Shown: piece by piece, positions 1,509-13,338 of the stretch
Position numbering within the stretch: position 1 is the first letter of the stretch
How the letters are laid out: each line of letters opens with the position of its first letter
Source of the DNA: Methanomassiliicoccales archaeon
GTDB lineage: Archaea > Thermoplasmatota > Thermoplasmata > Methanomassiliicoccales > UBA472
Assembly: GCA_026394395.1 (NCBI GenBank)
Contig: JAPKYK010000003.1
Location: forward strand, 76,547 to 140,546
Length of the DNA: 64,000 nucleotides
Direction of reading: 5' to 3'
Position numbers and translations under genes: made by a program
Notes under the pieces: model-generated
Told to the model about the DNA's origin: nothing
The model's input: only the letters and a program-made list of their open reading frames with translations
Database searches by the model: none

Positions 1509-4500
1509 ATGATAAAGCAGGTCCAAGGTAGTTATAATCCAATTGAGCTTGAGAATGCGGTGCGAGCCCGTTGGGCCGAGACCGAGGCATATAAGAAGAC
1601 CAAAGAGCTGAGGGCTGGTGGTCCGGACTTCTATTTCGTGGACGGACCACCGTACACCACTGGTTACATTCACATGGGCACGGCCATGAACAAGACCATC
1701 AAGGATCTGATGGTCCGGTTCAAACGGATGCAGAAGTTCAATGTTACCGATACTCCGGGCTACGACATGCACGGGCTGCCCATCGAGGTCAAGGTGGAGA
1801 AGTCCATCGGGGTCAAGAACAAGAAGGAGATCGAGGAGTACGGCATAGACCGGTTCGTTGGCATATGCAAGAACTTCGCCCTGGACTTCCAGAAGCAGAT
1901 GAACGCCGACTTCAAGGAACTGGGCGTGTGGTTCGACTGGGACAAGCCGTACCTTACCATCACCCCGGGGTACATCGAGGCCGCCTGGTGGACGCTCAAG
2001 AGGGCCTACGACAAGGGACTGCTGGTCAGAGCCAGCCGCGTTCTTCCCGGATGCCCGCGCTGCGAGACGGCCCTGGCCGAAGCGGAGATCGATTACTGGG
2101 ACGAGAAGGACCCCTCGATCTACGTCAAGTTCAAACTAAAGGACGACCCCAAGGTCTCGTTGCTCATCTGGACCACCACGCCCTGGACCCTGCCGGCCAA
2201 TCTGGCCGTGGCCGCCCATCCCGACTTCGAATATGTCAAGGTGCGCTATCGTAGGATAGGGGAGACGGACACCGTCATCCTGCTCAAGGGAAGGGAGGAG
2301 GAAATCAAGGACCTGGGCGGCTGGGAGAAATACGAGCTGCTGCAGGTCATCCAGGGCGACGACCTGGTGGGCGTTGAGTACATCACTCCTTTCATCGATG
2401 AGGTGCCCTATCAGAATTCGGCCAGCGGCAAGTGGTTGCACAAGGTCATCCCCTCCAAGACGGTCGAGGCCACCAACACTGGCCTGGTGCACATAGCCCC
2501 GGGGCATGGCCCCGAGGACTTCGACCTGGGAAAGGAGTTCGGCCTGGAACCCTTCTGTCCAGTGGACGAGGCCGGGAACTTCACCCAATTGGTCGGGGAG
2601 AAGTACCAGGGAATGAACATCAAGAAGGCGAACCCCGAACTGCTCAAGGACCTGGAGGAGAAGGACCGCCTGTTCTTCAACGGGCTGATCGAGCACCGCT
2701 TCGGTCACTGCTGGAGATGCAAATCTCCAGTGCTCTTCCGCACTACCAGCCAATGGTTCCTGCGAGTGACGCAGGTCAAGAACCAGATGCTGGAGGAGAT
2801 AGAAAAGGTTCGTTGGACCCCAGACTGGGCCGGGTCGTCCCGAGAGTACGACTGGACCGTCAACGCCCGGGACTGGTGCATATCCCGCCAGAGGTACTGG
2901 GGCATACCCATCCCCGTATGGTTGTGCCACTGCGGGGAGATGAAGGTCATCGGGATGGTGGACGAGCTCAAGGGGGCCGAAGGCTTCCGCGAGGACATGG
3001 AGCTCCACCGCCCCTGGATAGACGCGGTGAAGCTCACCTGCCCTAAATGCGGCGGGCAGATGAGCCGCGTGCCGGACGTCCTGGACGTCTGGTTCGATTC
3101 GGCGGTGGCCTCCTGGGCCCAGCTAGGGTTCCCGGGAAGAACGGACGCCTTCGAGAGGCTGTGGCCGGCCAAGTTCATCGTGGAGGCGCACGATCAGACC
3201 CGCGGCTGGTTCTATTCGCAGCTCGCCGCGGGCGTTATCGCCTTCGGACGCGCCCCTTACGAGTCAGTGCTAATGCACGGATGGATGCTGGACAGCCACG
3301 GGCTGCCCATGTCCAAGAGCCGGGGCAACGTGGTGGAGCCGGGCAAGGTCATCAAAGAGCACGGAGCCGACGCCCTGCGCTTCTACCTGATCAAGACCTC
3401 CGCCCCCTGGGACGACATACCCTTCCAGTTAGAAGGTGTCAAGAACGCCCGGAAGACCCTCAACGTGTTCTGGAATGTGGTCAACTTCGCCACCACCTAC
3501 ATGGCCATCGATAAGTTCGACCCCAAAATCGTAAGCCGGGAGGGAGTGCACGCCCATCTGCGCCAGGAGGACGTATGGCTGATCTCGCGCACCGAGAAGC
3601 TGAAGAACGAGGTCACCCGCCAGGTGAACGCCCTCGAGCTGCATAAGGCCGGAAGGGCCATCGAGGATTACATCCTGGACGACCTCTCCCGCTGGTACGT
3701 GAGGCTGATACGCGACCGCATGTGGAGCGAGGAAGGCGACTCCGGCAAACTGGCCGCCTACCGCACCTTGTACGATGCCATAATGGACACCACCCTGTTG
3801 CTGGCGCCGATCTGCCCCCATCTGGCCGAAGAGATCTACCAGTATATGGACGGCAGCAAGGTCAGCGTGCACATGATGGATTGGCCAGGCAGTGACCTGA
3901 CCCGAGTGGACGAGCGGCTGGAGAAGACCATGTCCATGGTCCAGGAGATCGTGGACACGGTCACCCGCGAACGCCAGCTCAAGAACGTTAAGCTGCGCTG
4001 GCCCATGAAGAGGATCATAATCAAAGTGAACAACAACGACAGCCTGGCCGCCCTGCGGTCCATGGAGGACATACTCCTTTCCCAGTCCAACGTCAAGAAG
4101 GTGGAGTACGTGTCCGCGGGCGAGGAATGGTCCGAAACGGTCTTGAACGTCGTCCCCAACCCCCTGGCCATCGGCAAGGTCTATCGCCAGTGGGCCTCCA
4201 AGATAGCCGTGCTGCTGCAGAGCCGCCCGGCAACTATGATCAAGGAGAGCATGCAGCGCGGAGAGTACTCCCTCGGGATTGAGGGGCAGCTCATCAAGAT
4301 CGAGCCGAACATGGTCTCCTTCAACATTTCATTGCCGAAGAACGTCTACGCCGCCACCTTCAGCGGGGGCGAGCTATACCTGGACTTCGAGGTCACCAGG
4401 GAGATAGAGGCCGAGGGCTTCGCCCGGGAGATAATCCGCCGGGTGCAGCAGACCCGCAAGGACATGAAGCTGGACGTAGAGGAGTTCGTCAAGGTGGAGG

Positions 4501-5669
4501 TCACCGCCGAGTCCAAGGTCTCCGAGTACCTGAAGATATGGAAGGCCCACATCATGAGCGAGGTGCGCTCCAAGTCCATGGAGATAGTACCAGAGGTCCA
4601 CGGGGAGATGGTGGGCAAGTGGGAGATCGAAGGGGAGAAGGTGGACATCGGGGTCAGCTCCCTGAACCTGAAGGATGCGATAAAGGAGCTGACTATGATC
4701 CCGGGCATATCCTCAAAGGCCGCCGAGGCGCTGGTGGATGCCGGCGTGCGCAACGCTTCCGACCTCAAGCTGCTGACCGAGGAGCAGATAGAGGAACGAA
4801 CCAAGCTGAGCAAGCCCGATGTGCGCAAGGTGTTGCATTACTTCGACCGTTCCACGGAGACCTGCAAGGCCGTTCCGGAAGCGGTGGGAAAGGTCCTGAG
4901 CAAACCGGAGCTGATGCCCTATCTCATGCGCATACCGCGCATGAACGAGCTGAAGGCCGAGATGCTCTACGATGCTGGCTACGATTCCATAGAAAAGCTG
5001 GAGAACGCCAACAAGGACGCTCTGAAGGGCGTGCCGGGCTTAGGCACCAAGACCATCGAGGAGATCACCAAGTACATCGGCGAGGGCGGTTTCCATCGCT
5101 GTTCCGTCTGCCCTAAGTGCGGAAGCGCCGTCACGGCGGCCGACCTGATCTGCCCATCATGTAATACCTCGCTGGTGGGCGAGGCAGAGGAAGAGACCGA
5201 GGCTACGACCAAAGTGCAGGGGCTCCAGGACGGATACAGCTACCTCATAAAGGACGACCGCTCCGACCGATCCTACCAGCTGTTCATGGACCAGGTCAAG
5301 AAGGGCAGCAAAGGTTACTGCGTGACCAGGAACTATCCCCTCAAGATACGAGGGAAATACGAGCTGGGCGACACGCCCATCATCTGGCTGAGCAACGTGG
5401 GCAAGGAGGACAGCCTGCGGCCCAAGGACCTCGAGAAGCTCAGCTATTCGTTAGAGCAGTTCCTGAGCAAGGGCAAGGGGGTGGTGTTGCTGGACGGGTT
5501 GGAGTACCTGATCACCAACAACAACTTCCTGACCGTGCTACGCTTCGTGCAATCTCTGCGGGACCAGGTGGCCATAAATAGCTCCATCATGCTGATGGTG
5601 CTGAACCCCTCCACCCTGGACGCCAACGAGCTGAACCTGCTGGAGAAAGAGGTGGACGGGACCTTATAG
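1509..5669 (+). CDS. ileS: Isoleucyl-tRNA synthetase with C-terminal HhH, zinc-ribbon and DUF835 domains
   Basis: Charges tRNA-Ile. The class I HIGH-type motif appears as HMGT at residues 55-58 and KMSKS as MSKS at about 601-604, both in the archaeal form. The ordinary synthetase ends near residue 1050. Then come two helix-hairpin-helix repeats (about 1055-1110 and 1135-1190, with IPGISSKAAEAL and VPGLGTKTIEEI), a four-Cys zinc ribbon (about 1197-1225) and a DUF835-like domain (about 1241-1386). The total is 1386 residues against roughly 1050 for the family. ATG 1509 precedes the conserved synthetase N-terminus; the frame is open upstream to 1440 but that part is not family-like. The stop is TAG and overlaps the convergent Nudix-fusion gene by 6 bp. 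Confidence 0.95.
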   Translation: MIKQVQGSYNPIELENAVRARWAETEAYKKTKELRAGGPDFYFVDGPPYTTGYIHMGTAMNKTIKDLMVRFKRMQKFNVTDTPGYDMHGLPIEVKVEKSIGVKNKKEIEEYGIDRFVGICKNFALDFQKQMNADFKELGVWFDWDKPYLTITPGYIEAAWWTLKRAYDKGLLVRASRVLPGCPRCETALAEAEIDYWDEKDPSIYVKFKLKDDPKVSLLIWTTTPWTLPANLAVAAHPDFEYVKVRYRRIGETDTVILLKGREEEIKDLGGWEKYELLQVIQGDDLVGVEYITPFIDEVPYQNSASGKWLHKVIPSKTVEATNTGLVHIAPGHGPEDFDLGKEFGLEPFCPVDEAGNFTQLVGEKYQGMNIKKANPELLKDLEEKDRLFFNGLIEHRFGHCWRCKSPVLFRTTSQWFLRVTQVKNQMLEEIEKVRWTPDWAGSSREYDWTVNARDWCISRQRYWGIPIPVWLCHCGEMKVIGMVDELKGAEGFREDMELHRPWIDAVKLTCPKCGGQMSRVPDVLDVWFDSAVASWAQLGFPGRTDAFERLWPAKFIVEAHDQTRGWFYSQLAAGVIAFGRAPYESVLMHGWMLDSHGLPMSKSRGNVVEPGKVIKEHGADALRFYLIKTSAPWDDIPFQLEGVKNARKTLNVFWNVVNFATTYMAIDKFDPKIVSREGVHAHLRQEDVWLISRTEKLKNEVTRQVNALELHKAGRAIEDYILDDLSRWYVRLIRDRMWSEEGDSGKLAAYRTLYDAIMDTTLLLAPICPHLAEEIYQYMDGSKVSVHMMDWPGSDLTRVDERLEKTMSMVQEIVDTVTRERQLKNVKLRWPMKRIIIKVNNNDSLAALRSMEDILLSQSNVKKVEYVSAGEEWSETVLNVVPNPLAIGKVYRQWASKIAVLLQSRPATMIKESMQRGEYSLGIEGQLIKIEPNMVSFNISLPKNVYAATFSGGELYLDFEVTREIEAEGFAREIIRRVQQTRKDMKLDVEEFVKVEVTAESKVSEYLKIWKAHIMSEVRSKSMEIVPEVHGEMVGKWEIEGEKVDIGVSSLNLKDAIKELTMIPGISSKAAEALVDAGVRNASDLKLLTEEQIEERTKLSKPDVRKVLHYFDRSTETCKAVPEAVGKVLSKPELMPYLMRIPRMNELKAEMLYDAGYDSIEKLENANKDALKGVPGLGTKTIEEITKYIGEGGFHRCSVCPKCGSAVTAADLICPSCNTSLVGEAEEETEATTKVQGLQDGYSYLIKDDRSDRSYQLFMDQVKKGSKGYCVTRNYPLKIRGKYELGDTPIIWLSNVGKEDSLRPKDLEKLSYSLEQFLSKGKGVVLLDGLEYLITNNNFLTVLRFVQSLRDQVAINSSIMLMVLNPSTLDANELNLLEKEVDGTL

Positions 5670-6437
5670 GCCGAGCGCTTCCAGCACCTTGCGGAAGCCG
5701 GGTACCGTGTCGTACTGCGGGAGCTGGTCCAGGTTCGCCCAGGTGCACTCGGTGTGCTCCCAGTCGAGGGTGACCTTCTCGTCCTCTACTTCGAATAGGA
5801 AAGGATATATGGTCCACAGATAGGCCCCGTCGCGCACGCGCAGCGCCTCCGTCCTCTTCTCGATGCGGGCGGTAGTGATGCATGTCTCTTCCATAACCTC
5901 TTTTAAGGCGGTCTCTTCCGGCTTCTCGCCGCGCTCGATATAACCGCTGACCGCGGCCCACTTCCCCTTGTTCGTGCCTACCTTCTGGCTGCGCTTTAGG
6001 ATCAATATCTTCCCTTTACACCGAAGTACACAGGTGACCACCTTCTTCTCCACCAGGTCCATCATGTCCAAGGAATCTCCGTTGACCACGGCGCGGTCGC
6101 CCTCCCTGAGAATGGATATGTCCAATAAATCGATCATCGGGATGCCGGCCATGACCGCCCCGGTAGACACGATCGTCTCCGCCTGGGCATTGATTATCGC
6201 CGCGGGCAGGTGCCCGTTCTTCTTCAGGTCCATTATGGTATAGGAACCGACGGTCGAGCCTTTTCCGCAGGGGAACACAAGTATGCGTCCGTCGATGTTC
6301 TCCCCTTCCCGCCCGGAGGCGACGGTGAACAGACCGGTCACGGGGTCCACTCCTCCCAGGAAGCTGAACGGTTCGTTCATTACCATCATTCTTCCGATCG
6401 CTTTGCCGCTGAATATCACACGACCTTTAATCTTCAC
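5664..6437 (-). CDS. Phosphomevalonate dehydratase small subunit (aconitase X swivel, DUF126) fused to a Nudix hydrolase domain
   Basis: Residues 1 to about 128 are the DUF126 swivel domain, the small subunit of aconitase-X enzymes. In archaea this subunit belongs to mevalonate 5-phosphate dehydratase of the archaeal mevalonate pathway; GKGSTVGSY near residue 58-66 and the ETIVSTGAVMAGIPMID segment are typical. Residues about 130-257 are a Nudix domain. Its box runs 165-187 as G-x5-E-x7-K-E-V-M-E-E, with Lys in place of the usual Arg and Cys in place of the last Gly; the metal-binding Glu residues are kept. The small subunit is usually a free protein of about 130 residues. The gene starts inside the large subunit's stop (ATGA overlap, 6434-6437), so the two are translationally coupled. 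Confidence 0.85.
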   Translation of the reverse strand: MKIKGRVIFSGKAIGRMMVMNEPFSFLGGVDPVTGLFTVASGREGENIDGRILVFPCGKGSTVGSYTIMDLKKNGHLPAAIINAQAETIVSTGAVMAGIPMIDLLDISILREGDRAVVNGDSLDMMDLVEKKVVTCVLRCKGKILILKRSQKVGTNKGKWAAVSGYIERGEKPEETALKEVMEETCITTARIEKRTEALRVRDGAYLWTIYPFLFEVEDEKVTLDWEHTECTWANLDQLPQYDTVPGFRKVLEALGL

Positions 6438-7615
6438 AAAATCATCTCCAGTAGTTCACGCTGAGAACCGCAGAAAACCTTCTGCGAGCATAGTCCGGGC
6501 AAGTAGGCACAGGCCTTCGCCGAATCGCTGGCGGTGACCTTATGCAGTCCTTCGATGGGCGCCACCACCATGCAGGTGTCGCACAGCACCTTCCCGAAAC
6601 GCTCCAGGACCGCCCGTTCCTTCGGGCATCTTAGCCACACGCCTTTGGAGGTGCAGAACCACACCTCTACGTCGCCCTTCTTGACCTTCCCGTCCAGCTT
6701 GGCCGCCAGTTCCTTCATCTCTCTCTCCGAGAGGTGGGGGCAGCCTATGGCTATCAGGTCCGGTTTCGTTCCGGTGCGGAGCCGCTTTACCGTATCCTCC
6801 AGGTCCTGGCGGGTTACGCTGAGCGTGGGCAGCCCTGCCAGGGAGGCGGGCTGCTCGGGGGTGACCCCTTCCACCATGAACATGGCCACGGAACCGGAGG
6901 CGGCCATGGCCGCCGCCAGCGACTTCAGCCCATTGACGTCGTGGCCCAGGCCGCGGAAGAAAGGCACGCAGGCTCCGAGCTTCCTTCCCACGGTGTGCCC
7001 TACTATAGACCATTCGTCCTGGCCTATACCTTCCTCCACCTGCACCACGTGCGTGGCCTTCCGGTTCTGCTCCAAGTGCAGACCGTAGTTAGGCGTGCGA
7101 CCGGTGATGGCCGCGGCCAGCGCTCCCGGCCCCCCTTCCCGGTTGGTACGAGCCCCGAGGACGGAGTTGGCAAAGGAGAGGGCGGAGGACTCCGCCCAGG
7201 CGATATGGTCGCCCACCTTGGGGCGATTGGTCAGCAGATAAGGGGTGCAGGTGCAGTTGATCTCCACTCCCATCTTCTCGTATAAGCTGATGATGTGCAG
7301 CTGCCTTTTGGCGAAATGCTCGCTGACCCCCATCTCTTTCCAGCGTTCCGTGTCCATTCCCATGGGATTGAGGGTGGTGGGCACGCATACCTTGGAATCC
7401 TTGGCCATCTCTTCAAGGAAATCGATCCCGCCCTCGCCTATGGTCTTGTACGAAACGCCAGAAAGATGCGCGGAGGTGATGGGGATGAGCCGGTCTGCCC
7501 TGTAGATCTTGCCGAGGGCCGCCAGCAGCTCCATGGCCTTCTGCTTGCCGCGCCCTTCCTTGCCGGCAAGCATGGACGTCTCTTCGGGGGTCAGTTGCAT
7601 GATTTCCGAAAACAA
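6434..7615 (-). CDS. Phosphomevalonate dehydratase large subunit (aconitase X, DUF521)
   Basis: Catalytic Fe-S subunit of the aconitase X family, 393 residues, full length. Family-typical segments include the LIPITSAHLSGVSYKTIGEGG N-terminal region, NPMGMD, CTPYLL and AWAESSALSFANSVLGARTNREGGP. Archaeal members dehydrate (R)-5-phosphomevalonate to trans-anhydromevalonate 5-phosphate on the way to isopentenyl diphosphate and the ether lipids. The homologous bacterial proteins act on hydroxyproline derivatives, but the archaeal context favours the mevalonate role. It is followed with a 4-bp overlap by its small subunit. A tRNA-Arg gene lies just upstream. Confidence 0.9.
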   Translation of the reverse strand: MFSEIMQLTPEETSMLAGKEGRGKQKAMELLAALGKIYRADRLIPITSAHLSGVSYKTIGEGGIDFLEEMAKDSKVCVPTTLNPMGMDTERWKEMGVSEHFAKRQLHIISLYEKMGVEINCTCTPYLLTNRPKVGDHIAWAESSALSFANSVLGARTNREGGPGALAAAITGRTPNYGLHLEQNRKATHVVQVEEGIGQDEWSIVGHTVGRKLGACVPFFRGLGHDVNGLKSLAAAMAASGSVAMFMVEGVTPEQPASLAGLPTLSVTRQDLEDTVKRLRTGTKPDLIAIGCPHLSEREMKELAAKLDGKVKKGDVEVWFCTSKGVWLRCPKERAVLERFGKVLCDTCMVVAPIEGLHKVTASDSAKACAYLPGLCSQKVFCGSQRELLEMIL

Positions 7616-11974: not shown

Positions 11975-12676
11975 TCAGAACCTCGCCTTTAGCACCACTA
12001 TACCCTCCTTGCGGGAGATGTCGATGGAGTGCTTTCCGGTCAGGTGGTTCGTCCCGCGCATCTTCAGGACCTCCAGGTATTTGCGCCTGGCGCCTAGTTC
12101 CTCGGACAAGTGCAGAAGGACGATCCCGTCGACGGCGTAGGAGATCTCCGGAGGATAGAGCTCCCCGGGACGCACCTCACCGGTGACCACGGTGGTAGCG
12201 TTCCAGTTCTTCAGCCTATTGATCAAGTCGAAGAGGAACTGGCGATAACCGTCCTTGAACATCTCACCGACCACGGTGATGGGATCGATGACTATGCGCT
12301 GGGGCACGACCTCGGCGATGCGTGATTCGATGGCGTCCAGCAGCTTGCCGGAATCACCATCCCGTAAGATGTTGCCTAGGTCCTCATAAATAATCTGGTT
12401 GTCGAAATATTCCGGTCGCATGAACTCGAACTGGGAGGAGAATCGTAACATCCATTGAGTCGGTTCGCTGAGGGTGGTGAAGTATAGCCCCTGCTCTCCC
12501 CGCACCGCCCCTTCACAGAGGAAACGTAGGGCGAAGGTGGTCTTCCCAGTGCCGGCGGTGCCGGAGACCAGAATGACCGAAGGGAATGGAAAGCCTCCTT
12601 CGATCATCTCATCCAAGCCGGGTATGCCGGCAGGTATGCGCATCAGGTCCGTCCGCTCGAGCTTGATCTCTTCCAT
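11975..12676 (-). CDS. KaiC-like RecA-superfamily ATPase
   Basis: Single-domain KaiC/RadA-like ATPase of 233 residues. It opens with the family phrase IPAGIPGLDEMIEGGFP, then Walker A GTAGTGKTT at 39-47. A hydrophobic strand ending in IVIDPITVV serves as Walker B, and VTGEVRPGE follows near residue 155. Archaeal genomes encode many such proteins, usually in signalling or motility contexts, and most lack a known function. It lies 2 bp downstream of a KaiC-like protein without Walker A (12679-13338). The two are probably co-translated and may form a mixed complex. Confidence 0.85.
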   Translation of the reverse strand: MEEIKLERTDLMRIPAGIPGLDEMIEGGFPFPSVILVSGTAGTGKTTFALRFLCEGAVRGEQGLYFTTLSEPTQWMLRFSSQFEFMRPEYFDNQIIYEDLGNILRDGDSGKLLDAIESRIAEVVPQRIVIDPITVVGEMFKDGYRQFLFDLINRLKNWNATTVVTGEVRPGELYPPEISYAVDGIVLLHLSEELGARRKYLEVLKMRGTNHLTGKHSIDISRKEGIVVLKARF

Positions 12677-12678
12677 GG

Positions 12679-13338
12679 TCAGTAATCTCCTTTGATATTG
12701 TCGTTGGATATTTTCAAACGCGCCCTGTCCGAGGACATTGGAATATGCTCAGGGACCAACGCGATCTCCCTTCCCCCTAAGTCCTTGATCATATGAAACA
12801 GGGTGGGATTCCTTTCGTGGTCCACCAACAACGGTACCGTGACCTTCCCGCCGAGGGCGGAGATGAAATCGTTCAGGAATGATCGGACCGCTTGCTGGCT
12901 GTTGTAGGTTAAAAAAGTGGATAGGTTATCGATGACCGCGAAACCGCACTCCCCGAGGTCAATGCCCGGGCCTCCATCGGCTACAGACCAGTCCTTCAGG
13001 GCTTCGGGCAAGGTGTCAATGTTACGCGGCCCCCGGAAGAATCCCACCTTCACCGAAGCAGATTTGGAGTCGGCACTGAAACGGGCCACCGCATCCACGA
13101 AGGTGAGGCTGCGGCAATCGATCCCATGCATAGTGAGAAGATGCACCATGTACTGATGGGGGCGGTCCACGGAAATGAACAGCCCGGGTCGTCCCTCCTC
13201 CATAAGGGCCTTCAAGAGCACCAGCTCCACCTTGACGAACTGGGTGGTTGGGACGTCCATCACCATCAGGCCAGGGCTGAGGGGGGCGCCCAGCTGGGCC
13301 TTGATCTGCTCGAAGAGCAGCAGGTCCTTATCATTCAT
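12679..13338 (-). CDS. Degenerate KaiC-like protein without Walker A
   Basis: A 219-residue protein with the strand order of a RecA/KaiC domain: LSPGLMVMDVPTTQFVKVELVLLKALMEEGRPGLFISVDRP at the start, then FAVIDNLSTFLTYN at the Walker B position, then VPLLVDHERNP. There is no GxxGxGK[T/S] loop; the equivalent position reads DVPTTQFVKVEL. It is therefore unlikely to bind ATP in the normal way. It is the first gene of a two-gene unit with an intact KaiC-like ATPase. A regulatory or sensor partner role is inference. Confidence 0.65.
   Translation of the reverse strand: MNDKDLLLFEQIKAQLGAPLSPGLMVMDVPTTQFVKVELVLLKALMEEGRPGLFISVDRPHQYMVHLLTMHGIDCRSLTFVDAVARFSADSKSASVKVGFFRGPRNIDTLPEALKDWSVADGGPGIDLGECGFAVIDNLSTFLTYNSQQAVRSFLNDFISALGGKVTVPLLVDHERNPTLFHMIKDLGGREIALVPEHIPMSSDRARLKISNDNIKGDY

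Follow-up and report, generated by a model that had tools for sequence, protein, structure and literature searches.

Across the archaeal class Thermoplasmata, isoleucyl-tRNA synthetase (IleRS) carries a C-terminal tail of helix-hairpin-helix (HhH) units, a putative zinc ribbon and a DUF835 domain, and we report here, as a new observation, tailed copies without HIGH and/or KMSKS in at least seven families, each genome examined having a second IleRS. Because the enzyme part decayed and the tail was kept in several lineages, a second job for this protein is very likely, perhaps that of reporting the amino-acid or translation state of the cell. The reading that we favour, with a probability of roughly 0.55, is a bifunctional IleRS that combines charging with a catalysis-independent function of the tail, the synthetase body sensing and DUF835 being plugged into a KaiC/DUF835 network. 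Direct support extends to the fusion and its depth, the constraint on it, the grouping of its DUF835 domains, the degenerate copies with their second IleRS, the co-losses and the retained fold.

Architecture of the tailed isoleucyl-tRNA synthetase

The gene lies in a window of 64,000 nucleotides, the whole stretch of DNA analysed, in which a single continuous plus-strand frame (1440/1509 to 5669) spans IleRS and tail. ATG 1509 is the most likely start and GTG 1440 an unlikely one, because stop-to-stop frames of the same genus are mostly 1389-1392 aa, and the resulting gene (1509-5669, plus strand), assigned from Pfam, NCBIfam and ortholog frame lengths, encodes 1386 aa plus the stop. On the same strand, Pfam places a class I catalytic domain with an editing insertion (tRNA-synt_1) at 1566-3404 (residues 20-632, 7.7e-125), an anticodon-binding domain (Anticodon_1) at 3570-4016 (residues 688-836) and the IleRS C-terminal domain (DUF5915) at 4068-4658 (residues 854-1050, 2.3e-21); motif reading finds both the HIGH motif, PPYTTGYIHMG (1647-1679), and the KMSKS motif, PMSKSRGN (3306-3329), intact. 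The protein scores 942 bits against NCBIfam ileS (TIGR00392, cut-off 621) and, being the sole IleRS of a genome that is 99.85% complete, presumably charges tRNA-Ile. Its stop overlaps by a few bases the end of a convergent gene (5664-6437, minus strand) in which an aconitase X swivel domain of the phosphomevalonate dehydratase small subunit type is fused to a NUDIX domain, and the AcnX large subunit comes next at 6434-7615.

A sequence-only reading of this DNA had described an IleRS fused to a tail of about 335 residues past residue ~1050, with two HhH repeats, CxxC-CxxC and a "DUF835-like" domain. The fusion is confirmed by the single frame, the Pfam layout and the orthologs; the tail start given there, 4660, falls in the right region but misses the reading frame by one base, as the tail begins at 4659. 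The two HhH repeats and the CxxC pairs are likewise borne out, as is the picture of an essential synthetase that bears a tail of signalling type. HHH_5 exceeds its Pfam cut-off in the tail (52.6 bits versus 27) over two stretches, with unit 1 (IPGISSKA) at 4668-4853 (plus strand; HHH_5, Cdd1 at residues 1056-1094 and AF2 helices) and unit 2, which contains the conserved RIPRMNxxKAExLYDAGY and GLGxKT, at 4902-5081 (plus strand; HHH_5 at residues 1138-1187, ortholog conservation and AF2). A putative zinc ribbon, CPKC-x10-CPSC, occupies 5109-5162 (plus strand); zinc ribbon profiles of Pfam stay below cut-off there (residues 1201-1222, best 22.8 bits versus 27.6), and its CxxC pairs are conserved in an alignment of 30 orthologs.

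The terminal domain (5238-5651, plus strand; Pfam, alignment, AF2 and Foldseek) turned out in a domain search of the tail to be DUF835 proper (PF05763), matching at residues 1251-1381 with 9.7e-34 and 116.5 bits against a gathering cut-off of 33.1 and covering model positions 4-135 of 136. Its core, LLDGLEYLITNNNFLTVLR...LRDQVAI...NPSTLD.HELNLLEKEVD, is near-invariant across the 30 orthologs, in which variable linkers join this core to the two conserved HhH blocks and the CxxC pairs, and an extra zinc ribbon lies between the HhH units in some relatives.

An AF2 model of the tail built from 41 sequences (mean pLDDT 90.3) consists of a pair of HhH bundles, a small zinc module that includes beta structure and a DUF835 domain of beta/alpha type, connected by low-confidence linkers. 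Foldseek searches with the modelled DUF835 returned FlaH (5e-5) and PH0284 (1.5e-4), and the TM scores by target length were 0.51 against 4yds and 0.49 against 2dr3; although these reach only about 0.5, the predicted fold resembles the RecA/KaiC-like fold of the KaiC-family ATPases FlaH (ArlH) and PH0284. It differs from these proteins in spanning ~140 residues and in lacking Walker A, and its sequence hardly marks it as a KaiC-family member: profile matches between DUF835 and the KaiC family are weak (ArlH, E 0.0015; FlaH, E 0.029), and a search for a sequence match between the IleRS-borne DUF835 and the window's own KaiC found none. The Walker A P-loop GxxxxGK[ST] is absent from all 32 aligned DUF835 domains, so ATPase activity would not be expected.

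Like the DUF835/iKaiC signalling proteins (PF05763), the window protein bears the domain C-terminally and with a strong Pfam match; unlike them, it joins DUF835 to an aminoacyl-tRNA synthetase, and the IleRS-borne domains form a group of their own. In the accessible part of PMC5847659, the one open paper that our search found to name DUF835, the fusions given are with REC and PAS, and IleRS is not among the partners mentioned there. Our literature search for an archaeal IleRS with helix-hairpin-helix elements found none, a prior mention being possible in the KaiC-hub work (mBio 2017), and titles and abstracts held nothing relevant on synthetase fusions in Methanomassiliicoccales or C-terminal extensions in Thermoplasmata.

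Distribution, origin and loss of the tail

Our first survey covered 61 genomes: that of the window and those of 60 relatives, which GTDB assigns to Methanomassiliicoccales (UBA472, Methanomassiliicoccus) and other Thermoplasmata. In these, the tail was present in nine of ten genomes of the window's genus, the tenth (79% complete) giving a ValRS-like match only, in most of the window's family and in families f3-f6 of the order; it was absent from most of f2, probably the gut Methanomassiliicoccales. When the class was searched with the IleRS C-terminus plus HhH as query, most other Thermoplasmata families yielded IleRS frames, 1233-2929 aa long, and inspection of representative sequences placed DUF835 at or near the IleRS end in 24 families of the class. 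The survey of IleRS lengths in Thermoplasmatota that had been suggested as a check agrees with long frames across the class Thermoplasmata, and a test of length only listed no IleRS frame above 1206 aa in ~110 genomes of the other classes of the phylum. With the fusion class-wide, an oddity limited to one genus is ruled out, and so is an assembly error or frameshift at the junction, which the sequence-only reading had named as one way in which it might fail, by the same frame in about 30 independent orthologs; the draft genome G051 is an exception, its IleRS frame being split (L111). An IleRS of f13 (L091:2-8788, minus strand) extends to 2929 aa, with repeats of HhH, zinc ribbon and TPR units ahead of the terminal DUF835, and has lost its catalytic motifs.

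In a tree of 81 DUF835 domains, 51 IleRS-borne ones group together on much shorter branches than the others, apart from 27 domains that include REC-linked, membrane-anchored and V4R-linked ones; only three outsiders fall within the group, namely the split IleRS frame L111 and the proteins L182 and L187 of f11 and f10, respectively. This grouping fits a single old fusion, probably early in the class, a single origin being likely rather than proven because branches in the tree are long and its deep forks weak. Two IleRS types emerge from a second tree, built on the anticodon and C-terminal domains: type A, with PPYTTGxIHxG, is usually tailed, and type B, with PPTANGxPHxGH, forms a separate clade at 100/99 and includes no tailed enzyme in this set. 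The tail was lost at least three times with the charging motifs kept, in f2, in parts of f6 and in f22; the tail-less type A enzymes of these families nest in the tailed clade and are therefore losses.

Degenerate tailed copies and a second isoleucyl-tRNA synthetase

We inspected one to three tailed type A copies per family in f9, f10, f13, f15, f18, f26 and f29, and all copies by motif search in f15; these have lost HIGH, KMSKS or both. Every degenerate tailed copy falls in the type A clade. Judged by their motifs, such copies can hardly charge tRNA any more; f31 probably has a pseudo-IleRS too. All 18 genomes examined from the seven families contain a second, tail-less type B IleRS, ~1000 aa long and above the ileS cut-off in 17, the copy in G086 being a fragment with intact KMSKS. 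No second IleRS was found in 21 of 25 genomes with an intact tailed copy, and a degenerate tailed copy is associated with a second IleRS at 1.4e-8 by genome and 2e-4 by family (Fisher). The four exceptions (three from f8, one from f20) combine an intact tailed copy with a second IleRS in which HIGH and/or KMSKS is damaged. Second copies are thus damaged where the tailed one is intact, and vice versa, leaving one intact IleRS per genome examined. Type 1/type 2 pairs such as IleRS1/IleRS2 of Priestia megaterium likewise place two divergent IleRS lineages in one genome; in contrast to these, one copy keeps the signature motifs and the other is degenerate in the genomes examined here. Our first idea, that retention of a dead enzyme was peculiar to tailed copies, was ruled out by the reverse case in three f8 genomes (L320, L321, L322), where the tailed IleRS is intact and the tail-less type B copy lacks KMSKS, a finding that counts against the favoured reading.

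A pseudo-synthetase of ~1010 aa with no HIGH-type motif is kept in all 11 f15 genomes. The one copy scanned has no tRNA-synt_1 match, and the anticodon domain, DUF5915, HhH, zinc ribbon and a diverged DUF835 are present; conservation in f15 is highest in the C-terminal IleRS domain, HhH and zinc ribbon. Its model (pLDDT 79) matches IleRS structures, those of the Priestia megaterium enzymes among them, with a best E of 3.5e-36, and on this model the f15 pseudo-synthetases retain the IleRS fold. Some degenerate copies have a very divergent DUF835, as in f15, or none, as in the f9 copy L086, which also speaks against the favoured reading. The f10 pseudo-IleRS (L088:3087-7958, minus strand) has a C2H2 zinc finger beyond DUF835.

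Comparisons within the window's genus gave dN/dS values of 0.05-0.07 over DUF835, like the 0.04-0.09 of the catalytic part, and ~0.2 over the HhH/zinc region. Between the members of degenerate pairs from f13 and f26, no part is better conserved than DUF835, with 88-98% identity versus 64-87% in the catalytic part; identities are the safer comparison there because many synonymous distances are saturated. By these estimates, constraint on DUF835 equals that on the catalytic domain.

Synthetase domains with a regulatory use are known from Gcn2, in which uncharged tRNA binds to a HisRS-like domain (PMC4335047), and from HisZ, a dead synthetase domain kept as a regulator (PMC7373986). The likeness is one of working principle, a dead synthetase domain kept as a sensor of tRNA or an amino acid; the proteins described here differ in being class I IleRS, not class II HisRS, and in having DUF835 as output, not a kinase or HisG, with a sensing role that we infer. 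A synthetase fold with the catalytic motifs lost is found among the relatives, in f15 and six other families. The window copy is intact by motif, and the window gene itself is therefore not a pseudo-synthetase regulator of the Gcn2/HisZ kind.

Association with KaiC-family and DUF835 genes

The association of DUF835 with KaiC-like proteins, which the sequence-only reading had named, agrees with PMC5847659, which describes DUF835 as an inactivated KaiC-like domain, iKaiC, carried by archaeal response regulators, and with the loss of the tail within the order, which tracks the loss of KaiC/DUF835 genes. DUF835 occurs 11 times in the window genome, including a REC-DUF835 response regulator (L001). 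Eight tailed genomes of the order have 8-13 DUF835 and 10-17 KaiC-family genes, versus 0-5 and 2-6 in thirteen tail-less genomes (Mann-Whitney ~1e-4 with the IleRS-borne copy removed, a statistic that ignores kinship and genome reduction). Exceptions to the co-loss are f22, without the tail yet with 7 DUF835 and 13-15 KaiC genes, and genus g23, tailed yet with few DUF835 or KaiC genes. A KaiC-family ATPase gene beside a degenerate KaiC-like gene (11975-13338, minus strand) lies 6.3 kb from the IleRS gene in the window, and a KaiC gene is found at a similar distance in the congener G009.

Together with the IleRS tail, f2 genomes (for example G042 and G060) have lost nearly all of their DUF835 and KaiC-family genes. 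The f26 genome G131 has 37 DUF835 matches, some of them in open frames of 2000-3800 aa.

Proposed second function and alternatives

We propose that an archaeal IleRS gained the HhH/zinc ribbon/DUF835 tail, probably once and early in Thermoplasmata, that its enzyme part charges tRNA-Ile as usual and that the tail serves a second function independent of catalysis. In the most likely scheme, the body of the synthetase, with its anticodon-binding and C-terminal domains, would read the occupancy of tRNA-Ile or isoleucine; the HhH and zinc modules would hold RNA or another nucleic acid, the tethering suggested by the sequence-only reading being possible from the predicted modules; and DUF835 would dock onto a KaiC-like ATPase/DUF835 signalling network, the output being a report on isoleucine or translation status. 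In lineages whose charging passed to a second, tail-less IleRS, the tailed copy would have become a pseudo-synthetase kept for its tail function. A more specific version is tentative: the class may possess an IleRS-based sensor of starvation or translation that passes the state of tRNA-Ile or isoleucine through the pseudo-KaiC domain to a KaiC-type network. We are equally cautious in suggesting that this sensor, its body active here and dead in at least seven other families, could be an independent archaeal counterpart of Gcn2. To our knowledge, amino-acid starvation sensing in archaea is poorly known, and a class-wide synthetase whose signalling-type tail outlives catalysis is a concrete and testable candidate for it, one that ties DUF835 to translation and offers natural experiments in the tail losses, the dead enzymes and the lineages without most KaiC/DUF835 genes.

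The tail might instead act in cis as a charging aid, strengthening the binding of tRNA-Ile or making the enzyme more stable, with no further role, given that HhH and zinc ribbons are the usual nucleic-acid modules and that tRNA-binding domains are often appended to synthetases. We consider this improbable, since the tail sits on copies without HIGH/KMSKS, the f2, f6 and f22 lineages lost it and kept their IleRS, and DUF835 occurs elsewhere on response regulators and other non-tRNA proteins. Losses on motif-intact enzymes and retention on dead ones together mean that charging does not require the tail and is not the only reason for its retention, and on the same grounds regulation of charging, proposed from the sequence, is not favoured as its sole role. 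Retention on dead enzymes also makes it scarcely credible that the old fusion is neutral baggage preserved by accident: several losses occurred without apparent harm, but DUF835 has a dN/dS of ~0.05 and near-identical motifs across families. That the tail is made or processed as a separate protein seems very improbable as well. Start codons preceded by purine-rich bases do occur in frame within the gene (for example ATG 4608 and ATG 4695), so that part of the sequence-only reading's caveat stands and a short second product is conceivable; as to the internal promoter that it had also considered, a bacterial consensus scan, a weak test for archaea, found no promoter-like site on the plus strand at 4300-5700. 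The frame is moreover unbroken across the junction in dozens of orthologs, with no separate conserved gene start.

The main rival is a pure scaffold or localisation device, in which the tail would hold a live or dead synthetase in a complex, at the ribosome, nucleoid or membrane, without signalling; we regard it as unlikely though far from negligible. Like a scaffold, the tail differs greatly in length and has acquired TPR, HhH and zinc units, the f13 protein reaching 2929 aa, and giant proteins with an IleRS-type C-terminal domain adjoin the tailed IleRS in f16 and f20. Scaffolding alone, however, fails to explain why the same conserved DUF835 is nearly always terminal and why the tail is co-lost with KaiC/DUF835 genes.

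The giant-protein genes of f16 and f20 lie directly upstream of the tailed IleRS. The giants (L104:6514-11499, L106:710-6328, L292:744-6536 and L293:492-6476; ~1900-2400 aa) end in the IleRS-type C-terminal domain (DUF5915), have long helical-looking regions and, in some, an N-terminal zinc ribbon, and CARDB was found in both of those scanned.
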